Shown here: positions 2,646-43,701 of the stretch, in pieces | How positions within the stretch are numbered: the first letter of the stretch is position 1 | How the letters are laid out: each line of letters opens with the position of its first letter | From: Gemmatimonadota bacterium | Lineage (GTDB): Bacteria; Gemmatimonadota; Gemmatimonadetes; Longimicrobiales; Gaopeijiaceae | Direction: 5' to 3' | Length of the DNA: 46,116 bases | Assembly: GCA_009841475.1 (NCBI GenBank) | Contig: VXLT01000199.1 | Location: forward strand, 1-46,116 | Translations under genes and position numbers: made by a program | The notes under the pieces: model-generated | What the model was told of the DNA's origin: nothing | Databases searched by the model: none | The model's input: the letters and a program-made list of their open reading frames with translations, nothing else

Positions 2646-4904
2646 ATGTCCAGACACCCGATTCGACGATCGCACCCGGCCATCGGAATCGCACTGATTC
2701 TGATGGCTGCGGCAGCCACGCCCGAGAGCGCCGCGTTCGCTCAGGTTGTGGAGCACAGGGGCGAGATCGAGGGTGTGGTGCGTGCGGCCGAAACGGAAGG
2801 GCCCCTCGCGGGAGCGTCCGTGTCCGTGGTTGGTGTCGGGACGTCAGCGGTTACGCACGGCGACGGCTCCTTTCACCTGACCGGCATCGCGCCGGGGAGC
2901 TACACGATTCGCGTCCAGCGGCTGGGGTATCGCAGCCGGACCATCGAGGTCACGGTCGGAGTGGACGGGGAATATGTGGAGATCGAACTCGACACTTCAC
3001 CCATTCCGCTGGAAGATTTCGTGGTCACCGCGATGCTCACGGAGCGCGGGGCCGCCGAGGCCCTTCGGCCGGTCAGCGTGATGGCCGGCGAGGAGCTGCA
3101 GCGCCGCATGACGGGGACCATTGCCGAGACGCTGGCCTCGATACCGGGGCTGGCGGAGACAAGCATGGGTCCGGCTACCTCGCGCCCCGTGATCCGGGGA
3201 TTGAGCGGCGACCGCGTCCTCATGCTGGAGGACGGGAGCCGCGTGGGCGACGTCTCCAGCGCCGGGCCCGACCATGCCACTGCGGTCGATCCGTTGGCCG
3301 CGCGGCGAATCGAAGTGGTTCGCGGTCCCGCGTCCCTGCTCTACGGAAGCAACGCCCTGGGAGGGGTCATCAACGTCATCCGCGACGAGATTCCGTCCGC
3401 GGTTCCGCATCACCCGACCGGTGCCGCATCGCTGCAGGTCCAGAGCGTGAGTGGCTCGGTGTCGGGAGGGGGTTCAGCCACGTTCGCCGTGTCGGAACGC
3501 ATTCCCCTGCGGCTGGAAGTTACGGGGCGTACGGCGGGCGACCTGCACACGCCGGCTGGCCAACTGGCCAACACCAACGGTGAAACATTGAGCGCGGGCG
3601 CAGGGGGCTCGTGGGTCGCGGGCTGGGGACACGCGGGGGCTTCCGCGCGGGGCTACCGCAACCACTATGGGATCCCCGGCGGCTTCGTGGGTGGCCATGC
3701 GGAAGGGGTGCGGATCGAGATGGAACGCGCCGCATCCAAGGTCCAGGCAGTGATCGAGCGACCCAACGCGCGGTTCCGGTCGGTCAGGTTCGACGGTGCC
3801 TACACCTGGTACCGGCACAGGGAACTGGAGTCTGCGAACATCATCGGCACGCTGTTCAGGCTGCAGACGCTGAACGCGGACATGCTGGCCCGGCACCAAG
3901 CCTGGGGCCCGTTCTCGGCTGGCGCCGTCGGAGCCCGGGTAGCCTGGGAGGACTTCGGGTACGGGGGCTCGGGCGTTGCTCGAACCGATACGCCGGACAC
4001 GCGCCGCAGCACCGTTGCGGCATACGTTTTCGAAGAGGTCGATCTGGGTGCCACGCGCGTCGAGGCGGGGCTTCGCTACGACTGGGTCTTCATCAGTCCC
4101 GCCCACGAGGATCCGGACTCCGACATCGGCAACGTCCGGGACCGCAGCTTCCATGCGGCGTCAGCCTCCCTCGGGCTCCTCTACGACATCGGCGCGGGCA
4201 TGACCGTCGGCGCAAGCCTGGCTCGTGCCTTCCGGACCCCGGATGTCACCGAACTGTTTTCAGAGGGGCCGCACCTGGCGGCCTACACCTTCGAGATCGG
4301 GAATCCTTCGCTCGAGACCGAGCAGGGTACCGGGGTCGACGTATTCGCGCGCTTTGAGTCTCCGCGACTCAGGGCGGAGATCGCCGGATTCTACAACCGG
4401 ATTCGCGGTTACATCTACGGCGAGGAGACGGGGCGGCTCAGCCGTGTCCTCCTTCCCATCTACCAGTTCCAGAGCAACGACGCGCTGCTGGCGGGATTCG
4501 AAGGCAGCCTGAACTGGGATCTCGGCCGGGGGCTGGCGCTGCAGGCGGTGGCTTCGTCCGTGAGGGGGACGCTGACCGAGACGGACCGGCCCATCCCGTT
4601 GATCCCGCCGCTGCAGGGCCATGTGGGCATCGAGTATGAACGCCCGGCGTGGTTCGTTGGGTGGGACACCGAGATGGCCACAAAGCAGGATCGCGTCGGC
4701 GCTTTCGAGTCGCCGACAAAAGGGTACACGGTGTTCAATGCGTCGGCCGGGGCACGCCTGACGGTGGGAGGACGGCTGAACGTGATCACGGTGAGCCTGA
4801 ACAACGTTACGAACAGGGAGTATCGGAACCACCTCTCACGGGTGAAGGAAATCATGCCGGAGGCCGGGAGGGGTGTCAGCCTGAGCTATCGGGTCGTCTT
4901 CTAG
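2646..4904 (+). CDS. TonB-dependent outer-membrane receptor, ZnuD-like
   Basis: The 752-residue protein is a complete receptor for energy-dependent import across the outer membrane. In order: signal peptide ending near AAFAQ, a carboxypeptidase-regulatory-like beta domain (about 38-110; GEIEGVVRA, GSYTIRVQRLGYRSR), a plug (about 125-245) with RPVIRGLSGDRVLMLEDGSR, and a 22-strand-type barrel ending in an aromatic residue (SLSYRVVF). The plug segment DHATAVDPLAARRIEVVRGP with a nearby GDVSS is the pattern I associate with ZnuD-type zinc receptors. The substrate is therefore probably zinc or another divalent metal, and the flanking His-rich proteins agree. The ATG at 2646 lacks a convincing Shine-Dalgarno sequence; the preceding 169 bases are GC-rich with short inverted repeats but no riboswitch I can support. 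Confidence 0.88.
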   Translation: MSRHPIRRSHPAIGIALILMAAAATPESAAFAQVVEHRGEIEGVVRAAETEGPLAGASVSVVGVGTSAVTHGDGSFHLTGIAPGSYTIRVQRLGYRSRTIEVTVGVDGEYVEIELDTSPIPLEDFVVTAMLTERGAAEALRPVSVMAGEELQRRMTGTIAETLASIPGLAETSMGPATSRPVIRGLSGDRVLMLEDGSRVGDVSSAGPDHATAVDPLAARRIEVVRGPASLLYGSNALGGVINVIRDEIPSAVPHHPTGAASLQVQSVSGSVSGGGSATFAVSERIPLRLEVTGRTAGDLHTPAGQLANTNGETLSAGAGGSWVAGWGHAGASARGYRNHYGIPGGFVGGHAEGVRIEMERAASKVQAVIERPNARFRSVRFDGAYTWYRHRELESANIIGTLFRLQTLNADMLARHQAWGPFSAGAVGARVAWEDFGYGGSGVARTDTPDTRRSTVAAYVFEEVDLGATRVEAGLRYDWVFISPAHEDPDSDIGNVRDRSFHAASASLGLLYDIGAGMTVGASLARAFRTPDVTELFSEGPHLAAYTFEIGNPSLETEQGTGVDVFARFESPRLRAEIAGFYNRIRGYIYGEETGRLSRVLLPIYQFQSNDALLAGFEGSLNWDLGRGLALQAVASSVRGTLTETDRPIPLIPPLQGHVGIEYERPAWFVGWDTEMATKQDRVGAFESPTKGYTVFNASAGARLTVGGRLNVITVSLNNVTNREYRNHLSRVKEIMPEAGRGVSLSYRVVF

Positions 4905-5588: not shown

Positions 5589-8102
5589 TCAGCTCCCGGC
5601 CAGCTCCATGCGCACGTAGAGCACGCGCCCCGCGATCCCGTATGGCGACTCGGCGGGGTAGTCCATCGACCATAGCTGCGCCACGGCCCCGTCCGGCAGG
5701 CGGTTGGGAAGCCGGTCCAGGATGTTGTTGGCGCCCAGCCCAAGCCGCATGCGGTCGGCGACCCGGAGGTTGACCTCCGCATCCACGATCGAAGCGGCGT
5801 CGATCGTCACGGGCTCCTCGAAGATGAAGGGCGTAGTCACCTCGCCGATGTGCTTCAGGCTCAGCCGGGCTCCCACGCCGCCGGCCAGCCGGACGTCGGC
5901 GCCGACGCCTATCCGCTGTTTCGGCTGGGACTGTTCGATCAGGGTGGCCTGCGTCTCGCCGATGAAGTACTCGTTGCGGTTGGCCGTGATCTCGGTGCGG
6001 TTCCGGTGGTAGCTCGCCGACAGGTCGGCCACCCCCCAGGACATGTCTCGGAAGCGCCAGTTGGCGACGAGGTCGAAGCCCGACGTGCGCGTGTCGATCG
6101 CGTTGGTCCAGAACGCGACCGCGTCCACCGGGCGCCCCTGGAAGCGGGCGTCGGCACGCAGGCCGTGCGCCTGGGTCAGCGACCGGGTCAGAGCGATCGC
6201 GTTGGTCACCAGGACCCTGTAGTAGTCTGCGGACAGTTGCAGACCTGCCTGGCCGGAATAGACGAACCCGCCGGTGAGGCTTACCGACGTCTCATGGCTC
6301 AGGGAACAGGCGTCGAAGTCCGCGCAGGCGACGGGATCTTCCTCCGGGAGGAATCCGGCGCTGACCAGTCCGTCGCTGCCGCCGACGAAGCCGACGGTGT
6401 TGAAGCCGCGCTGAGCGAGCCGGGGCGCGCGGAAGCCGGTCGACACTGCCCCCCGCAGGGCCGCGCCGGGGACCCCCGTCTCGACCCGTCCGGCCACCTT
6501 CCCGGTGATCGAGGCACCGGCGTCACTGTACTGCTCGAAGCGAAGAGCCGCGCCCAGCAGTGAAGCCTCCGTCGGGCGCAGCTCGACATCGGCATAGGCG
6601 CCGAGACTGTTGCGGTCCCTCTCGCTCCCGTCGGCCGAAAGCGGGCTATAGCCGGGATACCCCTGAACCCCGCAGCTCGCGTAGGCCGAGCCACCGACAT
6701 TCAGGTGATGAGCGGCGGGGAAGCTGCCCGGGCTGTCGCTTTGTCCACACGCCCACGAAGCCCGTTCGCCCGCCTCCATCCAGTAGGAGTCACGCCGAAA
6801 GGCGCCGCCGACCGCCAGTAGTCCGGGAGCCAGGCCGAAGAAGAAGTCGCGCTTGGCGTCCGCGTTGAACGTCAGTTGGCGGACGTTCAGGGACCCGCTG
6901 CGGACATTGAGGGGTCCCGCGTTCGCGGCAATCGCCGCGCCTTCCGCACCCGGATTGTTGGCCAGGTATTCGGCTGCGTAGGAAGGGTTGATCGAGTTGG
7001 CGGCGCTGAAGGCGAACTGGCCGCTGCCATAGCCGACGCTCAGGTCGGTCGTCCACTCGCCCATGCTTCCACGGAGTCCGCCGACTGCCGAGGCGTCGGT
7101 CATCTCGGACTCCTCCACGGGGAAGAACCCGTCGGGGTACACGTAGGACACGTTGCGCGGGACCCAGTCCGCCTTGCGGTAGAGACCGTCGGAGACCGCG
7201 GTCCGGTCGGAATACCCGCCGAAGGCGTAGAACTCGAACGATTCGCCGGCGGGCAGCAAGGCATTGAGCATGAGCGCCGCGGATTCATAGTCGGGCTCAC
7301 CGTTGCGCTGGAGCCGGATCACCTTCCCGCCGTTCGCGCAGGGGGCATAGTCCGGATTCGGGCCGAAGCATGTCGGAGCCTCGCTGGCCCGGTTCGCAAC
7401 CTCCTGCTGCGCGACCTCCACGGTGAGGTTGAGGAAGCCGCGCCCGAGGGGGACCCCCGCGTTGGCCGAGGTGAGCAATCGTGCGCCGTCACCCCGGGAG
7501 GTGCGGCCCAGATACGACCGCGCGCTCACGCCACCCGCGTCGTCCTTGAGCACGATGTTGATCACGCCGGCGATCGCGTCGGAGCCGTACTGCGAAGCCG
7601 CGCCCTCGCGCAGGACCTCGATGCGCTTGATCGCATGAAGGGGTATCGCACGCAGGTCGGTCCCGGTGGTGCCCTGTCCGGCGGCGGCGAGCACCTTCGC
7701 AAAGGCGACGGGGTGGCGGCGCTTGCCGTTCACCAAGACCAGCACCTGGTCGCCGTTCATTCCCCGCAGCGTGGCGACGTGTAGCGCGGCGCCGTCCCCG
7801 GCCGAGAGCCGCGTGGAGTTGAACGAGGGTGCGATGCGTCCGAGGACCTCGCCCAGGTCGACCTCGCCGAGCCGGGCGATCTCTTCCGCGCCGTAGACGT
7901 CGACGGGGACGGGCAGGGAAGCGGGATCGACGATTCCGGCGCGTGAGCCGACGACGACAACGATTCCCTCAACGGTGGTCACCGTGTCCGGCGGGATTTG
8001 CGCAGACGCGGGGGTCGCCGGGATCAGTGCCATGAGCAGGGAAGCGGTGAAGGCGCAGCGGAGCCGGACTCCGGGTTGCGCCGGGAGTGACGATCCGTCC
8101 AT
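5589..8102 (-). CDS. TonB-dependent outer-membrane receptor, substrate unknown
   Basis: The 837-residue protein has a signal peptide (cleavage near TPASAQ), a short linker with VTTVEGIVVVVGSRAG resembling a TonB box region, a plug domain (about 60-180) containing LRGMNGDQVLVLVNGKRRHP and IEVLREGAASQYGSDAIAGVINIVLK, and a long barrel. It lacks the regulatory beta domain seen in the other receptor. The loop sequences contain paired cysteines (for example CFGPNPDYAPC and CADFDAC). This architecture matches the large family annotated for siderophore, nucleoside or carbohydrate import; the substrate cannot be read from sequence. It is transcribed divergently from the M16 peptidase across 144 bases, so the two could share control. 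ATG 8102 gives a normal signal peptide. Confidence 0.88.
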   Translation of the reverse strand: MDGSSLPAQPGVRLRCAFTASLLMALIPATPASAQIPPDTVTTVEGIVVVVGSRAGIVDPASLPVPVDVYGAEEIARLGEVDLGEVLGRIAPSFNSTRLSAGDGAALHVATLRGMNGDQVLVLVNGKRRHPVAFAKVLAAAGQGTTGTDLRAIPLHAIKRIEVLREGAASQYGSDAIAGVINIVLKDDAGGVSARSYLGRTSRGDGARLLTSANAGVPLGRGFLNLTVEVAQQEVANRASEAPTCFGPNPDYAPCANGGKVIRLQRNGEPDYESAALMLNALLPAGESFEFYAFGGYSDRTAVSDGLYRKADWVPRNVSYVYPDGFFPVEESEMTDASAVGGLRGSMGEWTTDLSVGYGSGQFAFSAANSINPSYAAEYLANNPGAEGAAIAANAGPLNVRSGSLNVRQLTFNADAKRDFFFGLAPGLLAVGGAFRRDSYWMEAGERASWACGQSDSPGSFPAAHHLNVGGSAYASCGVQGYPGYSPLSADGSERDRNSLGAYADVELRPTEASLLGAALRFEQYSDAGASITGKVAGRVETGVPGAALRGAVSTGFRAPRLAQRGFNTVGFVGGSDGLVSAGFLPEEDPVACADFDACSLSHETSVSLTGGFVYSGQAGLQLSADYYRVLVTNAIALTRSLTQAHGLRADARFQGRPVDAVAFWTNAIDTRTSGFDLVANWRFRDMSWGVADLSASYHRNRTEITANRNEYFIGETQATLIEQSQPKQRIGVGADVRLAGGVGARLSLKHIGEVTTPFIFEEPVTIDAASIVDAEVNLRVADRMRLGLGANNILDRLPNRLPDGAVAQLWSMDYPAESPYGIAGRVLYVRMELAGS

Positions 8103-33700: not shown

Positions 33701-34204
33701 GTCGGTGTGATTTCGCTGGCCGGGATCGTGGTGAACAACGCCATCGTCCTGATCGACTACATCGACGTTCTGCGCAAACGCGACGGGCTTAGCACCTACG
33801 AAGCACTGGTGCAGGGGGGCAAGACCAGGCTGCGGCCCGTGCTGCTGACCGCGACCACCACCGCGCTCGGCCTGGTGCCGCTCGCGATCGGGCTCAACTT
33901 CGACTTCTTCGGCCTGTTCTCCAGTCTCTCGCCGGAGTTCTTCTGGGGTGGCGAGCAGGCCGCCTGGTGGGGACCGATGGCCGTGGCGGTGATCGTCGGG
34001 ATTCTCTTCGCCACCTTTCTGACCCTTGTCCTGGTGCCGGTCATGTACAGCCTCGTGGATGACCTTGTGGGCCTGTTCAGGCGCCCGCGGCCGGGCGAGG
34101 AGGACGAGGACTCGCGCGAGGACCCCGGGTTCTCCATTGTTGTGTCGCCGCTTCCCGCGAGCCCCGAAGCCGAGCCGGAAGTGGCCGCAATCGTCTCTCG
34201 CTGA
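30731..34204 (+). CDS. RND efflux permease (HAE1/AcrB-like) with an extra hydrophobic hairpin
   Basis: This 1157-residue proton-driven inner-membrane transporter has the RND duplication: TM1 (TSVLVLFVFVTISGLLAY), a porter domain, TM2-6, then TM7 (AIVLAGSIVALLGTIGMY), a second porter and TM8-12. TM4 holds LGMLVDNAIVIVENIYR; the first Asp of the AcrB Asp-Asp pair is kept, the second is Asn, a common variant. An unusual stretch at about 515-555 (GLILLSLAGAVALAIVAAANPLTAG, LLIVAAALAWLLHRFLL) adds two hydrophobic segments between TM6 and TM7, making it ~100 residues longer than AcrB. The substrate could be drugs, bile-like compounds or native metabolites. It overlaps the adaptor by four bases. Confidence 0.94.
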   Translation: MSKGTDGRRAPAGRTFKEFRLTSLAVEHSTSVLVLFVFVTISGLLAYRSIPKESFPEFQMAMIAVNTVYPGVSPSDIESLVTRKIEEELNTISDVKELTSTSVEGYSSVVVEFETGTDLNEALQQVREKVDLARPELPSDSEDPFIMEFDMSDIPFMQVNLSGGYGLVRLKELGEELQERIESLPSILRVGLRGGLERQVKVEIDLSRLQYYNVSFDDVISAIRQENVNIPGGSIDVSGVKYLVRVDGEFDDPTLIRNLVVTTVGGRPIYVRDIATVEFGFAERETYARLGDEPVVTLDVVKRSGENIIATSAAVRAEIEAMRPLFPPSTVVVITSDMSDDIGMMVNSLQNNIISGLILIVGVLLFVLGLRTSIFVAISIPTSMFLSFIVIQLLGVSMNMVVLFSLILALGMLVDNAIVIVENIYRFIEEGWSRREACKKATGEVAVPVIAATATTLAAFTPLLFWPGMAGEFMKYLPLTLIITLSSSLFVALVIVPTLCSIFLDPEGGRPRKLNRNGLILLSLAGAVALAIVAAANPLTAGLLIVAAALAWLLHRFLLDRISRVFMGHGLPRLVAWYEKRLKWALNNRAIVLAGSIVALLGTIGMYANFAAPVEYFPEDIPPAVLFVSVDAPVGTSAEVTNEYAHRLQAEVGRISGISDAETIVTTVGATGGGGPMEGSGPSGPEAARITMSMVDFQERQFDVFQTLATMQERIGTGVAGAEVRVDQVSEGMPSGPPVNIEIAGEDPILLQELAGEAIDLIEAAPVYPRLVGLKSDMDDARPELRVEVDREKASLYGLSTNDVGFLVRSAINGLEAAKYRTGNEEYDIVVRLREEDREELTQLADLTVFTEGRQIPLLSVAGWTVEEGYSAIRRKDMDRMATVSAEVAAGYNSNAVRAEVEAVLGDFTAALPPGYSLEFTGEQEEQEEASAFLAGAFLAALMLIALILVTQFNSVIKPVIILSSVIMSTIGVLIGLMVFRMPFVIIMTGVGVISLAGIVVNNAIVLIDYIDVLRKRDGLSTYEALVQGGKTRLRPVLLTATTTALGLVPLAIGLNFDFFGLFSSLSPEFFWGGEQAAWWGPMAVAVIVGILFATFLTLVLVPVMYSLVDDLVGLFRRPRPGEEDEDSREDPGFSIVVSPLPASPEAEPEVAAIVSR

Positions 34205-34223
34205 CAGCCGGAGGTTATCGCCG

Positions 34224-35957
34224 ATGATCCGCCGCCACTTCTTCCTGCACGTCACGGCCCTTGCGGCCCTTGGGCTGGGTGCCTGCAGACCGCCTGAGTC
34301 GGATGTCCCCGCGCCGGAGGTTGCAGTCGTCCGCGATGTGCTCGCTTCGGACGGGGGGATGGTGGTGTCGGCCTACCCGGAGGCGAGCGTGGCAGGGGCC
34401 GAAGTGCTGGCGGCCGGAGGCAATGCTGTCGACGCGGCGATCGCGACCGGCCTGGCGCTGGCCGTGACGCATCCGGCCGCGGGCAACATCGGCGGGGGCG
34501 GATTCATGGTGATCCGCTTCCCGGACGGGAGCTCCACCGCGATCGACTTCCGCGAGAAGGCGCCCCTGAGGGCGCACCCCGAGATGTTCGTCGGGGAGGA
34601 TGGCGAGTACTCCTACCAGATCCATCACCGCAGCCATCTGGCGGTCGGCGTGCCCGGGACGGTGGCCGGCTTCGCGCTGGCCCACGAGAAGTACGGGAAC
34701 GCCGAGTGGGCCGGGCTGGTGGAGCCCTCGGTGGCGCTGGCGCGCGACGGATTCGTCGTCAGCGAGCGGCTGGCCGGATCGCTGGGGCGGATGGTGGACC
34801 GGTTCCGGGACTACCCGGCGAGCTACGCCCAGTTCTCGAGAGATGGCGAGCCCTATGAGGTGGGGGATACGCTGTTGCAGGCCGACCTGGCGGCGACCAT
34901 GGAGCGCATTCGCGACGAGGGCAGGGACGGCTTCTACCTCGGCATGACTGCCCGACTCCTCGCCGAGGAGATGGAGCGGGGCGGCGGCTGGATCACGGAG
35001 GAGGATCTGGCGCGCTATGAAGCGAAGGAGCGCGAGCCCGTGCGGGGGACCTACCGGGGTTACGACGTAATCAGCATGCCGCCGCCCTCCTCGGGGGGGA
35101 CCGCGCTGGTGCAGATGCTGAACGTGCTGGAGGGCTTCGACGTGGCCGGGATGGGCGCCGGCAACCCCGAGGTCGCCCACCACCTGATCGAGGCGATGCG
35201 GCGTGCCTTCCGGGACCGCGCGATGTTCCTGGCGGACTCCGACTTCGCGGACGTCCCCGTCGAGCGCCTGACCAGCAAGGCCTACGCCGACGAGATCCGC
35301 CCGACGATCCAGCCGGCGGCGGCCAGTGTTTCCGCCCCGGCCGACGTCGACGCCGCGGCCGACTGGGAGAGTTCAGAGACCACGCACTACTCGGTCGTCG
35401 ACGCGGACGGGATGGCCGTGTCGGTCACCTACACGCTGGAAGGCGGATACGGCTCGTACATCACCGTCCCGGGAGCGGGATTCCTGCTCAACAACGAGAT
35501 GGGCGACTTCAACGGCCGCCCGGGCCTCACGAACGAGAGCGGGCTGATCGGAACCGACGCGAACCTGGCAAGGCCCGAGCAGCGGATGCTCTCCTCGATG
35601 ACCCCCACGATTCTCGCCCGCGACGGAGAGCTGGTCGCGGTGATCGGCAGCCCCGGGGGACGCACGATCATCAACACCGTGCTGCACCTCGTGGTGAACA
35701 CGGTGGACTTTGCCCTGGCGCCCGCCGACGTGGTGGCGGCGAAGCGGCTGCATCACCAATGGCTGCCCGACCGGGCAAGGCTCGAGAACGGGTACATGAG
35801 CGAGGCTGACGGGGATGTTCTGGCGGCGATGGGGCACGAAGTCGGGTGGACCGGGAGCCAGGGGATCGCGCACTGCATCTTCGTGGATGGCGCGACGGGC
35901 GAGCTGGTGGGAGTGCCCGACCCGCGCGACTCGGACGGAGCCGCGGCGGGGTACTGA
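34224..35957 (+). CDS. ggt: Gamma-glutamyltransferase lipoprotein
   Basis: From ATG 34224 the 577-residue product has a lipoprotein signal (LAALGLGAC), placing it in the periplasm or outer membrane. GGT is an autoprocessed Ntn-hydrolase that cleaves gamma-glutamyl bonds of glutathione and related peptides. Family marks are intact: AAGGNAVDAAIATGLALAV, NIGGGGFM, the substrate-binding Arg in IDFREKAPL, the processing site and nucleophile Thr in SSETTHYSVVDADGMAVS, and GSPGGRTIINT. The track's longer ORF starts inside the RND gene and is rejected. It begins 19 bases after the permease stop, so it may belong to the efflux operon. It is convergent with glnS. Confidence 0.93.
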   Translation: MIRRHFFLHVTALAALGLGACRPPESDVPAPEVAVVRDVLASDGGMVVSAYPEASVAGAEVLAAGGNAVDAAIATGLALAVTHPAAGNIGGGGFMVIRFPDGSSTAIDFREKAPLRAHPEMFVGEDGEYSYQIHHRSHLAVGVPGTVAGFALAHEKYGNAEWAGLVEPSVALARDGFVVSERLAGSLGRMVDRFRDYPASYAQFSRDGEPYEVGDTLLQADLAATMERIRDEGRDGFYLGMTARLLAEEMERGGGWITEEDLARYEAKEREPVRGTYRGYDVISMPPPSSGGTALVQMLNVLEGFDVAGMGAGNPEVAHHLIEAMRRAFRDRAMFLADSDFADVPVERLTSKAYADEIRPTIQPAAASVSAPADVDAAADWESSETTHYSVVDADGMAVSVTYTLEGGYGSYITVPGAGFLLNNEMGDFNGRPGLTNESGLIGTDANLARPEQRMLSSMTPTILARDGELVAVIGSPGGRTIINTVLHLVVNTVDFALAPADVVAAKRLHHQWLPDRARLENGYMSEADGDVLAAMGHEVGWTGSQGIAHCIFVDGATGELVGVPDPRDSDGAAAGY

Positions 35958-38505: not shown

Positions 38506-38545
38506 GAGGGCAACTCAAGGCCAGCTCAAGAGCAGCCCAAGGATG

Positions 38546-38579
38546 TTGAATTTTCACCGATCAATGCGTATCTTCGGTG
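38546..38579 (+). promoter_or_regulatory. Candidate blaI promoter with overlapping inverted repeat (operator candidate)
   Basis: TTGAAT (38546-38551) and TATCTT (38569-38574) are spaced by exactly 17 bases, a good housekeeping promoter match 66 bases before the blaI ATG. The inverted repeat CACCGA (38555-38560) and TCGGTG (38574-38579), 13 bases apart, overlaps both the spacer and the -10 box. A repressor dimer bound here would block the promoter, so this is my candidate for autoregulation by BlaI. It lacks the TACA/TGTA half sites of staphylococcal bla operators. Confidence 0.5.
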
Positions 38580-38640: not shown

Positions 38641-39024
38641 ATGGCCGAGATGCCGCCGCTCAGCCGGCGAGAGCGACAGGTGATGGACATCATCCACGAG
38701 CTGGGGGGAGCGACAGCCGTCCAGATACGCGAGCGCATGTCCGATCCGCCCACGGATTCCGCCGTCCGTTCCGTGCTGCGCATTCTGCTCCGGAAGGGGC
38801 ACCTGGTGAAGGAGTATGACGGCCCGCGATTCGTCTACTCGTCCCGCATTCCCGCGCGCGCCGCCCGCCGCAGCGCGATGAGTCACGTCCTCAAGACCTT
38901 CTTCGGAGGTTCGGTGGAGGGAGCCGTGGCCACGCTCATCGCACTGGAAGACGGCGCGCTTGAGCCCGACGAACGCGAGCGCATCATGGCAATGATCGAA
39001 AGGGCCTCGGAGGAAGGACGATGA
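38641..39024 (+). CDS. blaI: BlaI/MecI/CopY family transcriptional repressor
   Basis: The 127-residue protein has the BlaI-type winged helix: LSRRERQVMDIIHELGGATAVQIRERM, the recognition helix region SAVRSVLRILLRKGHLVKEYDG, and a C-terminal dimerisation part ending LEPDERERIMAMIERA. BlaI proteins dimerise, repress operons and are released by cleavage triggered by a membrane M56 metallopeptidase. The next gene, overlapping by ATGA, is such a peptidase, so the pair is a complete sensing module. No beta-lactamase gene adjoins; the serine hydrolase at 15 kb is distant. Likely autoregulated through the inverted repeat upstream. A GGAAGAGC stretch lies just before the ATG. Confidence 0.93.
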   Translation: MAEMPPLSRRERQVMDIIHELGGATAVQIRERMSDPPTDSAVRSVLRILLRKGHLVKEYDGPRFVYSSRIPARAARRSAMSHVLKTFFGGSVEGAVATLIALEDGALEPDERERIMAMIERASEEGR

Positions 39025-41729
39025 ACTCCTTCACATGGGTGGCCGACGCGGCGCCGCTTCCCGGTTTCCTGATCCGCGTGACGGTCGTGCTGGCTACGGG
39101 TCTGGTCTTCGCCTGGCTCATTCGGAAGAGGTCGGCCCAGGTCCGCCACCGTCTCTGGACCGCAACCATGCTGCTCCTCCTGCTCCTGCCGGCGTTGTCG
39201 TTCTGGGCTCCACAGTGGGACGTGCCCCTGCTGCCCGCGCCGTCAGGCACGGGTGTGGAGGTGGAGACCACCGACTTGCCGGCGCCCTTTGCGGCATGGA
39301 CTCCGGTCTCGTCGGCGAACGTGCCCGAAGCGGAGCCGGCACGCGGACACGAAGCCGGGCTGGCCGCCGAGCGCGTTCTCCGGCCGGCAAGTGGACACGG
39401 CCGGGAGCCCGCAAGCGCGGACAACGGGGAATCGGCGGTTGGCTCCGGAGCCGGATCCGCGACCGGGCGGAGTGCGAGACCCGCCAGACCCCTGGTACTC
39501 TGGGCCATCGGCTGCCTGGTCGGCCTGATCTCCCTGGCTGCCGGACATCTTCGCTTCCGCACGCTCGTTCGTGGGGCACGCCCCCTTGCGGACCCCCGCT
39601 GGATCCGTGACCTGCGCGCCGCCGGATCCCGCCTGGGCCTCCGGGGCGACGTACGGCTGCTGGTCAGCGATACCGCCGGCACCCCGATGACCGGCGGGTT
39701 CTGGAGGCCGGTGATTCTTCTTCCGGCGTCTTCGGTGACCTGGGATTCGGCGCGGCGGACGGTCGTGCTGATGCACGAGCTGGTCCATGTCCGCCGGCGC
39801 GACGCGCTCCGCCAGCTGATGGGCGGGGTCGTGCTCGCCCTTTACTGGTTCCACCCGCTCAGCTGGCTGGCTTTCAGGCTCGCGGCAACGAGCCGGGAGG
39901 AGGCGTGCGACGAACGGGTGCTGGAACTTGGGTCGCGGCCTTCGGAGTACGCGCGGCACCTCGTGTCGCTGGCCACCGGGACCCGTACCGATCGTTTGCC
40001 GGTTGCCGCACTGTCGATGGCGCGGCAGTCCCCTTCAAGGCTGGAGAAGAGAATCATGGCCATACTCAGGCCTCGTCGTCCCCGCCCGAGCGCGCTGGCG
40101 ACAACGGCGCTGGTTGCGGCGATCGCCGCCCTGGCCGTTTCCGTGGCGGTTACCCATCCGGTTCAAAGGGAAAGCGCCGACGCCCTCGCCATCCTGGCGG
40201 ATCCACCCGTGGGATTGCCGGACGCCAAGGTGGGGTTGGAGGACACCCCGGTGGGGGAAGCGGTCGACGAACAAGCACGCGGTGCGGCGGTTACGCCGGC
40301 CGAAGGCCCCTCGGAAGCACCCGGGTCCGGCCCGCCGATGAGCAACCCTGGCGACCCGGCCGACGACCCGGCCGATGGCTCCGGCGAAAGAGGTGTCGAG
40401 GCGGGTGCGGCAGGATCGCACGGGGAACCGGCGATGGAAAATGGGACTCCGCCAGTCACCGAGCCCGGCGGCGGTACCGAGTCTCTCGCGGGTACTCCCG
40501 CTACAGTCTCCCCGGATGCCCCATTCCAGGATGCCCCGCCACTTCGTGACCTGCCGGACATCGACTGCGACACCCTGCCCCAAGGAGTTGGGAATGCGTC
40601 CGGAGTGGGCACGACAAGGTCCAGCCCGGATTCCCCTCCGCGCGATGTGGTCCGGGTGGTCATGGAAACCGTTGACGGCGTGCGCCTCTGCATGCGCATC
40701 CGGACGGATGCGGTCCTGGAGGGAGGCGAACTCCGCAGCCTGGCCCCGGACGACTGGATCCTCCTCGAGTCCGAGGGAGACAGGGTGCATCGGCTGATCA
40801 TTCGGAACGTAAACGGCGGCTTCGAGCACTGGTGGAGCGTGGGAGGCGAGAACCGGCCCTTTGACGACCAGGCGAGGGAGTGGCGGGACGGGATGCTGGC
40901 CGTTCTTGGAGGGCACCTGGAGATCGGCCGGATCCGGCGCGAGGTTTCGGACCTCCAGGAACAGATCTCCCATCACCGGGCCGTGGTAGCCGGCCTGCAG
41001 GGGCAGGCTGCCCATGAGCGGGATGTCGTCGCAAGCCTCCAAGGCCAGGTTTCGTACTACCAGGGGGTCGTTGCGGGTCTGCTGGACCAGATCACCTATC
41101 ACCAGGGTGTCGTCGCCGGGATGCGGGACGATATCGCCTATCATCGGAGCATCGTCTCCGGCCTGAGGGACGGGATCACCTATCACCGGGCCCGGGTCGC
41201 GGCCCTTCAGGAGGTGAAGTCTTCCTACGAGGCTCAGATTACGGCGATAGTCCCGCGGCTGAAGACTGCGGACGCCCGCACAAGGCATTCCATCGAGGCG
41301 AGCATCCGCGGCTTGGAGGAGCGCATAAAGGAAACCGAGGAGCAGATCGAGGCATACGGCCTGGGCGGCAAGGTTGCGAACATCAATGCCGAGATCAGGG
41401 AGTACAGTCTGGATGCGAAGGTGCGTAACCTCGAACAGCGGATCCAGGCGTATGAGTTGCAGGCCGGGCTGCAGAAGATCGAAGCGGAGATCGAAGAGCA
41501 GTCCAAACGCCTCGACGACGTGACCCGGCGCGCCGAAGAAGCGCTCCGGGCACGGGAGGCGCGAAGCGGAGAAGTTGAACGGGAGGTCGATGCCTACTAC
41601 CTGGACCACAAGGTCGCGAGACTGGAACAACGGATTCGGGAACTGGGTGCCGACGAAGCCGTGGCGAGGATCGAGCAATCGATCGAGGAGGCGAGAAGGC
41701 AGCTGCTTGAGTTGATTGGACGACTTTGA
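39021..41729 (+). CDS. BlaR1-like M56 family membrane metallopeptidase with coiled-coil repeat sensor region
   Basis: The 902-residue protein has two N-terminal transmembrane helices, a third near 155-175, the M56 zinc motif H252-E-L-V-H256 followed by REEACDERVLELG, and a final helix near 357-380 (ALATTALVAAIAALAVSVAV). In BlaR1 a penicillin-binding sensor domain follows; here there is instead a Pro/Gly/acidic stretch (about 385-515), a small domain (about 545-640; VVRVVMETVDGVRLCMRIRTD), six exact-length 14-residue repeats (648-731), and a coiled coil to the end with recurring YxLxxKVxxLExxI segments. It presumably senses an envelope signal and triggers BlaI inactivation. Length is about 1.5 times that of staphylococcal BlaR1. 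Its target genes beyond blaI are unknown. Confidence 0.88.
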   Translation: MNSFTWVADAAPLPGFLIRVTVVLATGLVFAWLIRKRSAQVRHRLWTATMLLLLLLPALSFWAPQWDVPLLPAPSGTGVEVETTDLPAPFAAWTPVSSANVPEAEPARGHEAGLAAERVLRPASGHGREPASADNGESAVGSGAGSATGRSARPARPLVLWAIGCLVGLISLAAGHLRFRTLVRGARPLADPRWIRDLRAAGSRLGLRGDVRLLVSDTAGTPMTGGFWRPVILLPASSVTWDSARRTVVLMHELVHVRRRDALRQLMGGVVLALYWFHPLSWLAFRLAATSREEACDERVLELGSRPSEYARHLVSLATGTRTDRLPVAALSMARQSPSRLEKRIMAILRPRRPRPSALATTALVAAIAALAVSVAVTHPVQRESADALAILADPPVGLPDAKVGLEDTPVGEAVDEQARGAAVTPAEGPSEAPGSGPPMSNPGDPADDPADGSGERGVEAGAAGSHGEPAMENGTPPVTEPGGGTESLAGTPATVSPDAPFQDAPPLRDLPDIDCDTLPQGVGNASGVGTTRSSPDSPPRDVVRVVMETVDGVRLCMRIRTDAVLEGGELRSLAPDDWILLESEGDRVHRLIIRNVNGGFEHWWSVGGENRPFDDQAREWRDGMLAVLGGHLEIGRIRREVSDLQEQISHHRAVVAGLQGQAAHERDVVASLQGQVSYYQGVVAGLLDQITYHQGVVAGMRDDIAYHRSIVSGLRDGITYHRARVAALQEVKSSYEAQITAIVPRLKTADARTRHSIEASIRGLEERIKETEEQIEAYGLGGKVANINAEIREYSLDAKVRNLEQRIQAYELQAGLQKIEAEIEEQSKRLDDVTRRAEEALRAREARSGEVEREVDAYYLDHKVARLEQRIRELGADEAVARIEQSIEEARRQLLELIGRL
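40962..41213 (+). repeat. Six tandem 42-bp repeats encoding a 14-residue coiled-coil unit
   Basis: The units read QISHHRAVVAGLQG, QAAHERDVVASLQG, QVSYYQGVVAGLLD, QITYHQGVVAGMRD, DIAYHRSIVSGLRD and GITYHRARVAALQE. All are exactly 14 residues (two heptads) with conserved I/V at 2, aromatic or His at 4-5, V-V/I at 8-9 and L at 12. They form the start of the C-terminal coiled coil of the M56 protein. The DNA units are diverged, so the array is not a recent amplification. Confidence 0.9.
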
Positions 41730-41850
41730 ATCTCCATGGGAGGCTGGCGCCGAAAAGGGACCCCTTGTTAGGCTACGGGCCGTTCCCGAGGTGGGTCCGG
41801 AGGTAGGCTGCCGGGTCCCGCGAAGCACACCCGCACGGAGTCGGAGAGCC

Positions 41851-43701
41851 ATGTCCCGCAGATTGATCCTGACGTGCGTCCTGATGGTGGCCGCGCATGC
41901 CGCCGCCCCCCACGCCGCCACCGCCCAGACCACCCAGAAGCCCGTCCTCCACGGCAAGGACTGGATGGCGATCACCGGCAAGCCGCTGGGAGCGACCGCC
42001 GGCGCGATGATGTTCCTGCGCGGGGGCAACGCGGTCGACGCGGCCTGTGCCATGCTCGGCGCCACAGCCACGATGTGGGACGTGCTGGGCTGGGGCGGCG
42101 AGACCCAGGCGCTCATCTACAACCCCGAAACCGGGAGGGTCATCGGGATCAACGCGCTGGGGGCCGCTCCGTCGGGGGCCACGCCCGAGTTCTTCCGCGA
42201 GCAGGGGATGGAGATTCCGCCCGCGTACGGACCCCTCGCCGCGGTGACGCCCGGCACCCCCGGCGGCCTGATGGTGATGCTCGCGGAGTACGGGAGCCTG
42301 AGCCTCGCCGAGGTGCTGGAGCCCGCGATCGACATGGCGCGCGGCTACCCGATCGAGGCCCAGGCCGCCAACGCGATCGAGCGCGAGAAGGAGCGGATCG
42401 CGGGGTGGCCGTACTCGAAGGAGGTCTTCCTGCCCCACTACGGGGAGGAGCGCGCCGCCCCCTCGCCCGGCGAGATCTTCGTGCAGGAGGACCTCGCCCG
42501 CACCCTGGAGAAGCTCGTCGAGACCGAGGCGGCGGCGCTGGCGGCGGGGGCCTCGCGCCGGGACGCGATCATGGCCGCCTACAACCGCTTCTATCGCGGC
42601 GACATCGCCGAGGAGTTTGTTCGCTCGTCGAACGAAGTCGGCGGCCTTCACACCATGGAGGACCTCGCCAACTGGCAGGTGTATCTCGAAGAACCCGTCA
42701 TGACCTCCTACAAGGGGATCGACGTCTACAAGCTGACGACGTGGGTGCAGGGGCCCGTTCTGCTGCAGGCGCTGAATATTCTGGAGGGGCTGGACGTTGC
42801 GTCGATGGGGTACAACTCGACCCGGTATGTCCACGCGCTCTACCAGGCCATGAACCTGGCGTTCGCCGACCGCGATTTCTACTACGGCGATCCCTACTAC
42901 CCGCCGGTAGAGCCGGTCGCCGGGCTGCTGTCGAAAGAGTACGCGGCCTCGCGCGCCGCCGGGATCGACTGGGAGAGGAACGACCCGGATGTGCTGCCGG
43001 GCGACCCGTACCCGTTCCAGGGGGGCACGAACCCGTTCCTGCACCTCATCGAGTCGTGGAACGAGCAGCCGGTTGCCACCCCCGAGTCGGCGGGGATGGA
43101 CTACGAAGACGCCTTCTACGCCGGTACGACGTCGATCCAGGCTGCGGACGCCGACGGCTGGGTGGTGTCGGTCACGCCGTCCGGCGCATGGATTCCGGCG
43201 GTGATCGCGGGCAGGACGGGGATCGGGATGAGCCAGCGCATGCAGAGCTTCGTGCTGGACGAGCGCGCGGGGCCGTACAACGTGGTGGAACCCGGGAAGC
43301 GGCCGCGCGCGACGCTCACCCCCTCGCTCGCGCTGAAGGATGGGCGGCCCTTCCTCTCCTTCGCTGTGCAGGGCGGCGACGGGCAGGACCAGAACCTCCT
43401 CCAGTTCTTCCTCAACGTGGTCGAGTTCGGGATGAACGTGCAGCAGGCGGCCGAGGCGGCCAACTTCAACAGCTACCAGATGCGGAGCTCCTTCGGCGCG
43501 CACGAGTCGCAGCCGGGGAGGCTGCTCCTGAACGAGGGGGTGCCCGCGTGGGTGCGCACCGAGCTGGAGGCGATGGGGTACGAGCTGACCTTCGCCGCGC
43601 GGACCTCCGGCCCGATCAACGCGATCTTCTTCGATGCCGCGACCGGGACGATGTGGGGCGGTTCCAGCAATCACGGGGAGGACTACGGGATCGCATGGTG
43701 A
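41851..43701 (+). CDS. Gamma-glutamyltransferase-fold protein with altered active site
   Basis: From ATG 41851 the 616-residue exported protein (signal AAHAAAPHAATAQ) belongs to the GGT Ntn-hydrolase family: LRGGNAVDAACAMLGATATM, AAVTPGTPGGLMVMLAEYG, and the region QALNILEGLDVASMG are recognisable. The likely nucleophile Thr remains in YAGTTSIQAADADGWVVS, so autoprocessing is plausible, but the next positions are TTS where GGT has TTH. The DFRE Arg that binds the gamma-glutamyl carboxylate is not found (GINALGAAPSGATP instead), GGGG is WGGE, and GSPGG is GGDGQDQN. The substrate therefore probably differs from glutathione; a cephalosporin-acylase-like or other amidase role is possible. It follows the M56 gene by 121 bases and precedes a hydrolase by 10 bases. 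Confidence 0.85.
   Translation: MSRRLILTCVLMVAAHAAAPHAATAQTTQKPVLHGKDWMAITGKPLGATAGAMMFLRGGNAVDAACAMLGATATMWDVLGWGGETQALIYNPETGRVIGINALGAAPSGATPEFFREQGMEIPPAYGPLAAVTPGTPGGLMVMLAEYGSLSLAEVLEPAIDMARGYPIEAQAANAIEREKERIAGWPYSKEVFLPHYGEERAAPSPGEIFVQEDLARTLEKLVETEAAALAAGASRRDAIMAAYNRFYRGDIAEEFVRSSNEVGGLHTMEDLANWQVYLEEPVMTSYKGIDVYKLTTWVQGPVLLQALNILEGLDVASMGYNSTRYVHALYQAMNLAFADRDFYYGDPYYPPVEPVAGLLSKEYAASRAAGIDWERNDPDVLPGDPYPFQGGTNPFLHLIESWNEQPVATPESAGMDYEDAFYAGTTSIQAADADGWVVSVTPSGAWIPAVIAGRTGIGMSQRMQSFVLDERAGPYNVVEPGKRPRATLTPSLALKDGRPFLSFAVQGGDGQDQNLLQFFLNVVEFGMNVQQAAEAANFNSYQMRSSFGAHESQPGRLLLNEGVPAWVRTELEAMGYELTFAARTSGPINAIFFDAATGTMWGGSSNHGEDYGIAW

Follow-up and report, generated by a model that had tools for sequence, protein, structure and literature searches.

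The gene at positions 39021–41729 (forward strand) of the window, a 46,116-nucleotide stretch of a Gemmatimonadota contig, encodes a membrane protease of the BlaR1 type that, by analogy with BlaR1, probably relays an outside signal via repressor cleavage. The most credible reading, and a reasonably likely one, is that this protein and the adjacent BlaI form a pair of the BlaR1 type with a non-penicillin sensor, in which the tail consists of a linker, a beta-domain and a probable hairpin rod, and the signal is relayed by cleavage of BlaI. The features are listed in Table 1.

Table 1. Features of the blaI-M56 locus (positions refer to the window; residue numbers, given in parentheses, refer to the M56 protein)
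Feature	Position	Strand	Basis or remark
Operator-like dyad TGTTGAATTTTCACCG	38544..38559	+	overlaps likely -35 TTGAAT 38546-38551; likely -10 TATCTT 38569-38574
BlaI-type repressor (127 aa)	38641..39024	+	PF03965 E=3e-22
M56 peptidase, 902 aa plus stop	39021..41729	+	PF05569 E=1.4e-37
Catalytic motif HELVH (252-256) ... E293xxxD297	39774..39911	+	invariant in ten homologs
TM4 (364-382), last membrane helix	40110..40166	+	hydropathy, charge bias
Pro/Gly/Ala/Asp-rich linker (385-543), including first conserved Cys C516	40173..40649	+	composition, Cys pattern; pLDDT <50 over 514-541
Beta-domain (544-612), invariant Cys 557 (LCMR)	40650..40856	+	homolog alignments; AlphaFold2 strands; no Pfam/PDB match
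Predicted continuous helix 616-749 (N-arm)	40866..41267	+	AlphaFold2 tail model
Six 14-residue units (649-732)	40965..41216	+	gapless, lag statistics
Tip region (733-776), with a helix break predicted near T749-A752	41217..41348	+	AlphaFold2, repeat scan
C-arm: seven units of 16 residues (777-888), two of them degenerate	41349..41684	+	repeat scan
C-terminus (889-902), corresponding to the conserved ALRxLI motif in homologs	41685..41726	+	near-invariant alignment columns

Protease core and topology

The open reading frame is a real gene, with homologs at 67%, 50% and 33-35% identity. The Peptidase_M56 domain spans residues 158-348 (PF05569, 129.9 bits against a cut-off of 31) and is followed by TM4, the linker, the beta-domain and the two repeat arrays, in this order. 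The gluzincin signature (HExxH plus ExxxD) is present as H252ELVH and E293xxxD297, the same in 10 of 10 homologs, and the 41-residue spacing between the histidine and the glutamate is that of the BlaR1 catalytic residues H201 and E242 (PMC9834060). Hydropathy analysis identifies four hydrophobic windows (residues 17-35, 45-63, 159-177 and 364-382) which, taken with the positive-inside bias of the loops and the acidic 519-residue tail, predict the BlaR1 topology of four TMs with both termini outside. Together with the BlaI gene directly upstream, the PF05569 match, the intact catalytic site and this topology bear out the BlaR1-like M56 protease recognized in the sequence-only reading.

The similarity to BlaR1 is confined to the protease: the BlaR1 sensor equivalog NF000326 is matched with 82 bits against a cut-off of 400, and over the M56 part only. 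No penicillin-binding domain was identified in the M56 protein by Pfam, and neither SxxK nor KTG occurs after TM4; a PDB fold search of the beta-domain was equally blank, so that a hidden penicillin-binding fold in residues 385-640 is ruled out. A PDB sequence search with the queries P0001 and P0002 found no relative at E<=0.01. The view that the repeats replace the penicillin-binding sensor holds in that no such domain is present, but the repeats do not take its place alone, being preceded by a linker and by a conserved beta-domain.

Linker and beta-domain

TM4 is followed by a low-complexity linker of about 160 residues and then by a beta-domain of about 70 residues with a conserved two-cysteine signature. 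Exactly two cysteines are found in the whole tail of 45 of the 47 homologs, one of them invariant (LCM) and the other located 19-52 residues before it; given this pattern, the C516-C557 pair is predicted to form an extracytoplasmic disulfide. Neither for the beta-domain nor for the rod do Pfam and PDB searches identify a known tail domain, yielding only sub-threshold coiled-coil matches; for the beta-domain itself, there is no Pfam match, and the best hit of the PDB fold search has E=0.1. As judged by these searches, in which no named family or fold was matched, the domain is undescribed.

This unnamed domain recurs in proteins of many Gemmatimonadota (68 of the 395 sampled genomes of the phylum). 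M56 proteins whose helical repeat is of another type (L097, L098 and L145-L148) carry it as well, with profile E values from 1e-5 to 1e-16, as do free-standing proteins that have a signal peptide or a lipoprotein-like signal at their start (L153, L155). The charge pattern of the tail, its cysteine pattern and the presence of the beta-domain in signal-peptide proteins argue against a cytoplasmic tail, a reading that was rejected, and uphold the extracytoplasmic placement proposed earlier; the topology, the disulfide and the helical rod are each supported by prediction or conservation. The exported beta-domain proteins are encoded beside M56 genes that also carry the domain (L153 from position 1636 onward, forward strand; L155 from position 1652 onward, reverse strand) and may be partners or decoys. 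In another M56 homolog (L038, from position 5725 onward; also L043), the tail is frame-shifted past the beta-domain, with 20 cysteines in the new frame, which represents either a degraded gene or an assembly error.

Two helical repeats and the predicted rod

The N-arm consists of six units whose first residue is 649 (nt 40965) in the heptad register and 648 (nt 40962) in the cut of the sequence-only reading, where they were described as exact two-heptad repeats. The exactness applies to their length, 14 residues without gaps, whereas the sequences of the six units are only 21-64% identical. Residue identity is 0.50 at lag 14 compared to 0.13 at lag 7, and the lag-14 signal was matched neither by 20,000 simple shuffles nor by 20,000 shuffles preserving the heptad register, so that a plain heptad repeat is ruled out and the true period is 14. 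The array is visible in the DNA (TRF 41059-41187, period 42) and is preceded by a degenerate seventh unit (residues 635-648). The second repeat, originally given as YxLxxKVxxLExxI and read as continuing coiled coil, is real, but it has a period of 16, extends over exactly 7 x 16 residues and probably is a return arm; its consensus is E-E-Y-D-L-D-G-R-I-R-E-I-E-A-Q-I (EEYDLDGRIREIEAQI).

In the N-arm consensus, I-A-S-H-R-G-H-V-A-G-L-R-R-E, a histidine usually occupies a core d position (65 of the 92 units). Combined with the best NCBIfam match of BlaI, the CopY/TcrY copper repressor (4.8e-9; 36.6 bits, under the curated cut-off of 122), this could point to a pH or metal sensor, in which protonation of the buried histidines or their binding of Zn/Cu alters the stability of the coil and so signals to the protease. 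Such a role is improbable, and as a function of the whole family it is disfavored by the loss of the histidine in L149 and L028, where the d position is mainly Ala and mainly Leu, respectively; furthermore, two of the six units in the window have Glu and Tyr at d, and no metal transport gene is conserved beside the BlaI/M56 pair.

The AlphaFold2 model of the tail (monomer, 15 sequences; mean pLDDT 82.5, pTM 0.51) contains strands, then a single 134-residue helix that holds all the 14-mers, and then broken helices with breaks 16-19 residues apart in places, in line with the helical rod proposed from the sequence; Foldseek matches of the tail are generic coiled coils. If the 134-residue helix is right, the rod would be about 20 nm long, which is comparable to the width of the periplasm. 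A predicted helix on this scale would suit a ruler that reports the distance from the inner membrane to the outer layers, the function suggested in the sequence-only reading. However, homologs carry anywhere between 1 and 8 units, and even the members of a single close clade range from 4 to 7 (14-mers/16-mers: L121 4/4, L138 5/5, L070 7/7); most of the homologs come from metagenome assemblies, where near-identical repeats can be collapsed. Because of this variation in unit number, measurement of envelope spacing by a fixed-length ruler is highly improbable.

The lengths of the two arms are correlated. For 33 homologs, with the N-arm taken to end at the last 14-mer and the C-arm to run from the first 16-mer to the C-terminus (spans of an automatic scan), the raw correlation is r=0.93 and that of phylogenetic independent contrasts, computed on the protease/beta-domain tree, is r=0.72 (P=2.7e-6), a relationship that was found after inspection of the same homologs. 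The slopes are 1.04 for the raw regression and 0.64 for the contrasts; the length of the tip insert does not follow arm length (r=0.06). The numbers of 14-mers and 16-mers, partly read by eye, are 1/2, 2/3, 4/4, 5/5, 6/6, 7/7 and 8/8, with L127 (3/5) and L080 (2/3) as exceptions, and among the contrasts in unit count, 15 nonzero ones have the same sign and none the opposite sign, with nine changing one arm only. Automatic unit counts yield rho 0.77 over all proteins but a weak rho of 0.24 where there are at least two 14-mers, mainly because the 16-mers in the clade of the window protein are eroded or degenerate. The net charge is positive for the N-arm in 27 of the 33 homologs and negative for the C-arm in all 33; in the window's own clade, the N-arm is near neutral.

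Passive tandem duplication of repeats that have no structural or signaling role would account for the near-identical units in L070 and L088, which indicate recent expansion, and for a pair of homologs that differ in one arm only (L122, 5/5, versus L127, 3/5). Given that the arm lengths are matched and that the core positions of both repeats are conserved across divergent clades, this is the least probable of the explanations considered.

From the co-varying arm lengths and the usually complementary charges, we infer an antiparallel helical hairpin that projects into the periplasm and whose arms pair unit by unit; on the simplest reading, each 14-residue unit would face a 16-residue unit holding a 2-residue break. 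Alternatively, the 14-mer and 16-mer segments could lie one after the other in an extended parallel coiled coil, dimeric or trimeric, that projects without doubling back, the 16-mers being heptad-plus-nonad alpha/beta elements. BlaR1 is a dimer, which a dimeric stalk would fit (PMC9834060); 16 equals 7+9, and 2-residue insertions make beta-layers in trimers (PMC4786415); and the Gly at f positions is unusual. Nevertheless, a parallel oligomer appears unlikely. The C-arm consensus, with its YDLDG motif, does not contain the beta-layer consensus [aliphatic]-A-T-K-x-[DE] (PMC4786415). The co-variation of the arms and their usually opposite charges would be left unexplained. As a straight rod, the whole tail would measure about 40 nm, more than a typical periplasm.

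Repressor, operator and gene neighborhood

BlaI matches Penicillinase_R with 79.6 bits (cut-off 22.6), and its gene lies directly 5' of the M56 gene in every homolog checked in which that flank is present. An operator is present upstream of blaI: the dyad, with the consensus TGTTGAnTTTTCA[AG]CA, overlaps a -35-like TTGAnT and is followed 17 bp on by a -10-like hexamer. At <=2 mismatches, it was found 5' of blaI in 19 of 19 homologs (Gemmatimonadota, MAGs labelled Acidobacteria and Rhodothermaceae) and in 0 of 3800 shuffles, the motif having been derived from the same 19 sequences that were then scored. A genome-wide scan at <=1 mismatch detects only two sites, the one in the window and one on contig C210 that adjoins another BlaI/M56 cluster. 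The sequence-only reading had suggested a motif search with the upstream inverted repeat to define the BlaI regulon. A wide regulon was rejected, and regulation is probably local because there are only two close copies of the dyad in the genome. In L101, a second exact operator copy is located between blaI and a propeller lipoprotein gene (positions 3652-4199); the neighboring M56 gene has a propeller-like tail in a second frame.

The gamma-glutamyltranspeptidase gene 3' of the M56 gene is adjacent only in close relatives (L023, L024 and L092), so this is not a family trait and a functional link was dropped. Two gamma-glutamyltranspeptidase paralogs (34026-35957 and 41716-43701) flank the GlnRS, BlaI and M56 genes, an arrangement kept in close relatives. 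The run of 48 C at positions 1-48, at the contig end, is probably a sequencing or assembly artifact.

Proposed mechanism

The mechanism proposed here is modeled on BlaR1, with its sensor displacement, dimeric protease and BlaI cleavage (PMC9834060). The protease would face the cytoplasm, and the periplasmic tail would comprise a flexible linker, a probably disulfide-clamped beta-domain and a stiff rod of helices. For this rod, an antiparallel hairpin is the most likely form: its 14-residue N-arm units would pair with 16-residue C-arm units (14 residues plus a 2-residue helix break), a fold that would return the C-terminus to the beta-domain. A periplasmic contact at the tip or the beta-domain could shift the tail relative to the membrane and thereby switch on the M56 protease, which would cleave BlaI and derepress blaI-M56, and perhaps the next genes too.

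A broader proposal, quite conceivable but short of probable, is that these proteins represent a new class of periplasmic sensors, in which a hairpin with 14- and 16-residue arms, kept at equal copy number by selection, stands on a disulfide-clamped beta-domain and drives a BlaR1-type protease, with its length tuned in each lineage to reach an envelope partner. Two unlike repeats that grow in step within one protein would offer a clean natural example of hairpin length co-evolution, which makes the fold testable.

The genome to which the window belongs (G000, 4.18 Mb) encodes 21 M56 peptidases (L001-L021), compared to 13 Penicillinase_R matches, and among their tails are 6-bladed propeller, TonB_C and TonB-receptor plug domains, pointing to a sizeable repertoire of M56 sensors. 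A cysteine marks the outer end of TM4 in 15 of the 21 paralogs (L003, L005-L007, L009-L013, L015, L016 and L018-L021), in roughly half of them within a lipobox-like context (VAAC, AVAC); such a cysteine is found also in many of the tail homologs and is absent from the window protein. By analogy with BlaR1, which is cut by signal peptidase at Gly331, signal peptidase II may cleave such tails and leave them lipidated.

Comparison with known systems

Penicillin sensing is what BlaR1 is known for, yet 21 M56 genes with very different outer tails occur in this single genome, so that the M56 protease resembles a general transducer to which different sensors can be fitted. The literature searched yielded no account of an M56 protein with a coiled-coil tail. 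The window pair shares with BlaR1/MecR1 and BlaI/MecI of S. aureus and B. licheniformis the four membrane helices, the cytoplasmic HExxH...ExxxD gluzincin site with its 41-residue spacing, the outside C-terminus, the BlaI-family partner gene and the operator at the promoter. In contrast to BlaR1/MecR1, the tail comprises a linker, a beta-domain and a repeat-built helical rod in place of the penicillin-binding sensor, and no beta-lactamase gene is recognized beside the pair. The Gemmatimonadota M56 proteins with IxSDxxxxxxL tails (L097, L098 and L145-L148) have the M56 core and the beta-domain in common with the window protein, but the beta-domain is followed by helical repeats of about 30 residues instead of the 14- and 16-residue arms.

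The cytoplasmic hairpin of chemoreceptors (MCPs) is likewise antiparallel and occurs in length classes whose arms change by matched heptad units. It differs from the predicted rod in its cytoplasmic location, symmetric 7-residue units and kinase-control tip, and no homology between the two was found. The alpha/beta coiled coils (PMC4786415) similarly have heptad repeats with a 2-residue insertion, but the known cases are parallel trimers and follow a consensus other than that of the C-arm.
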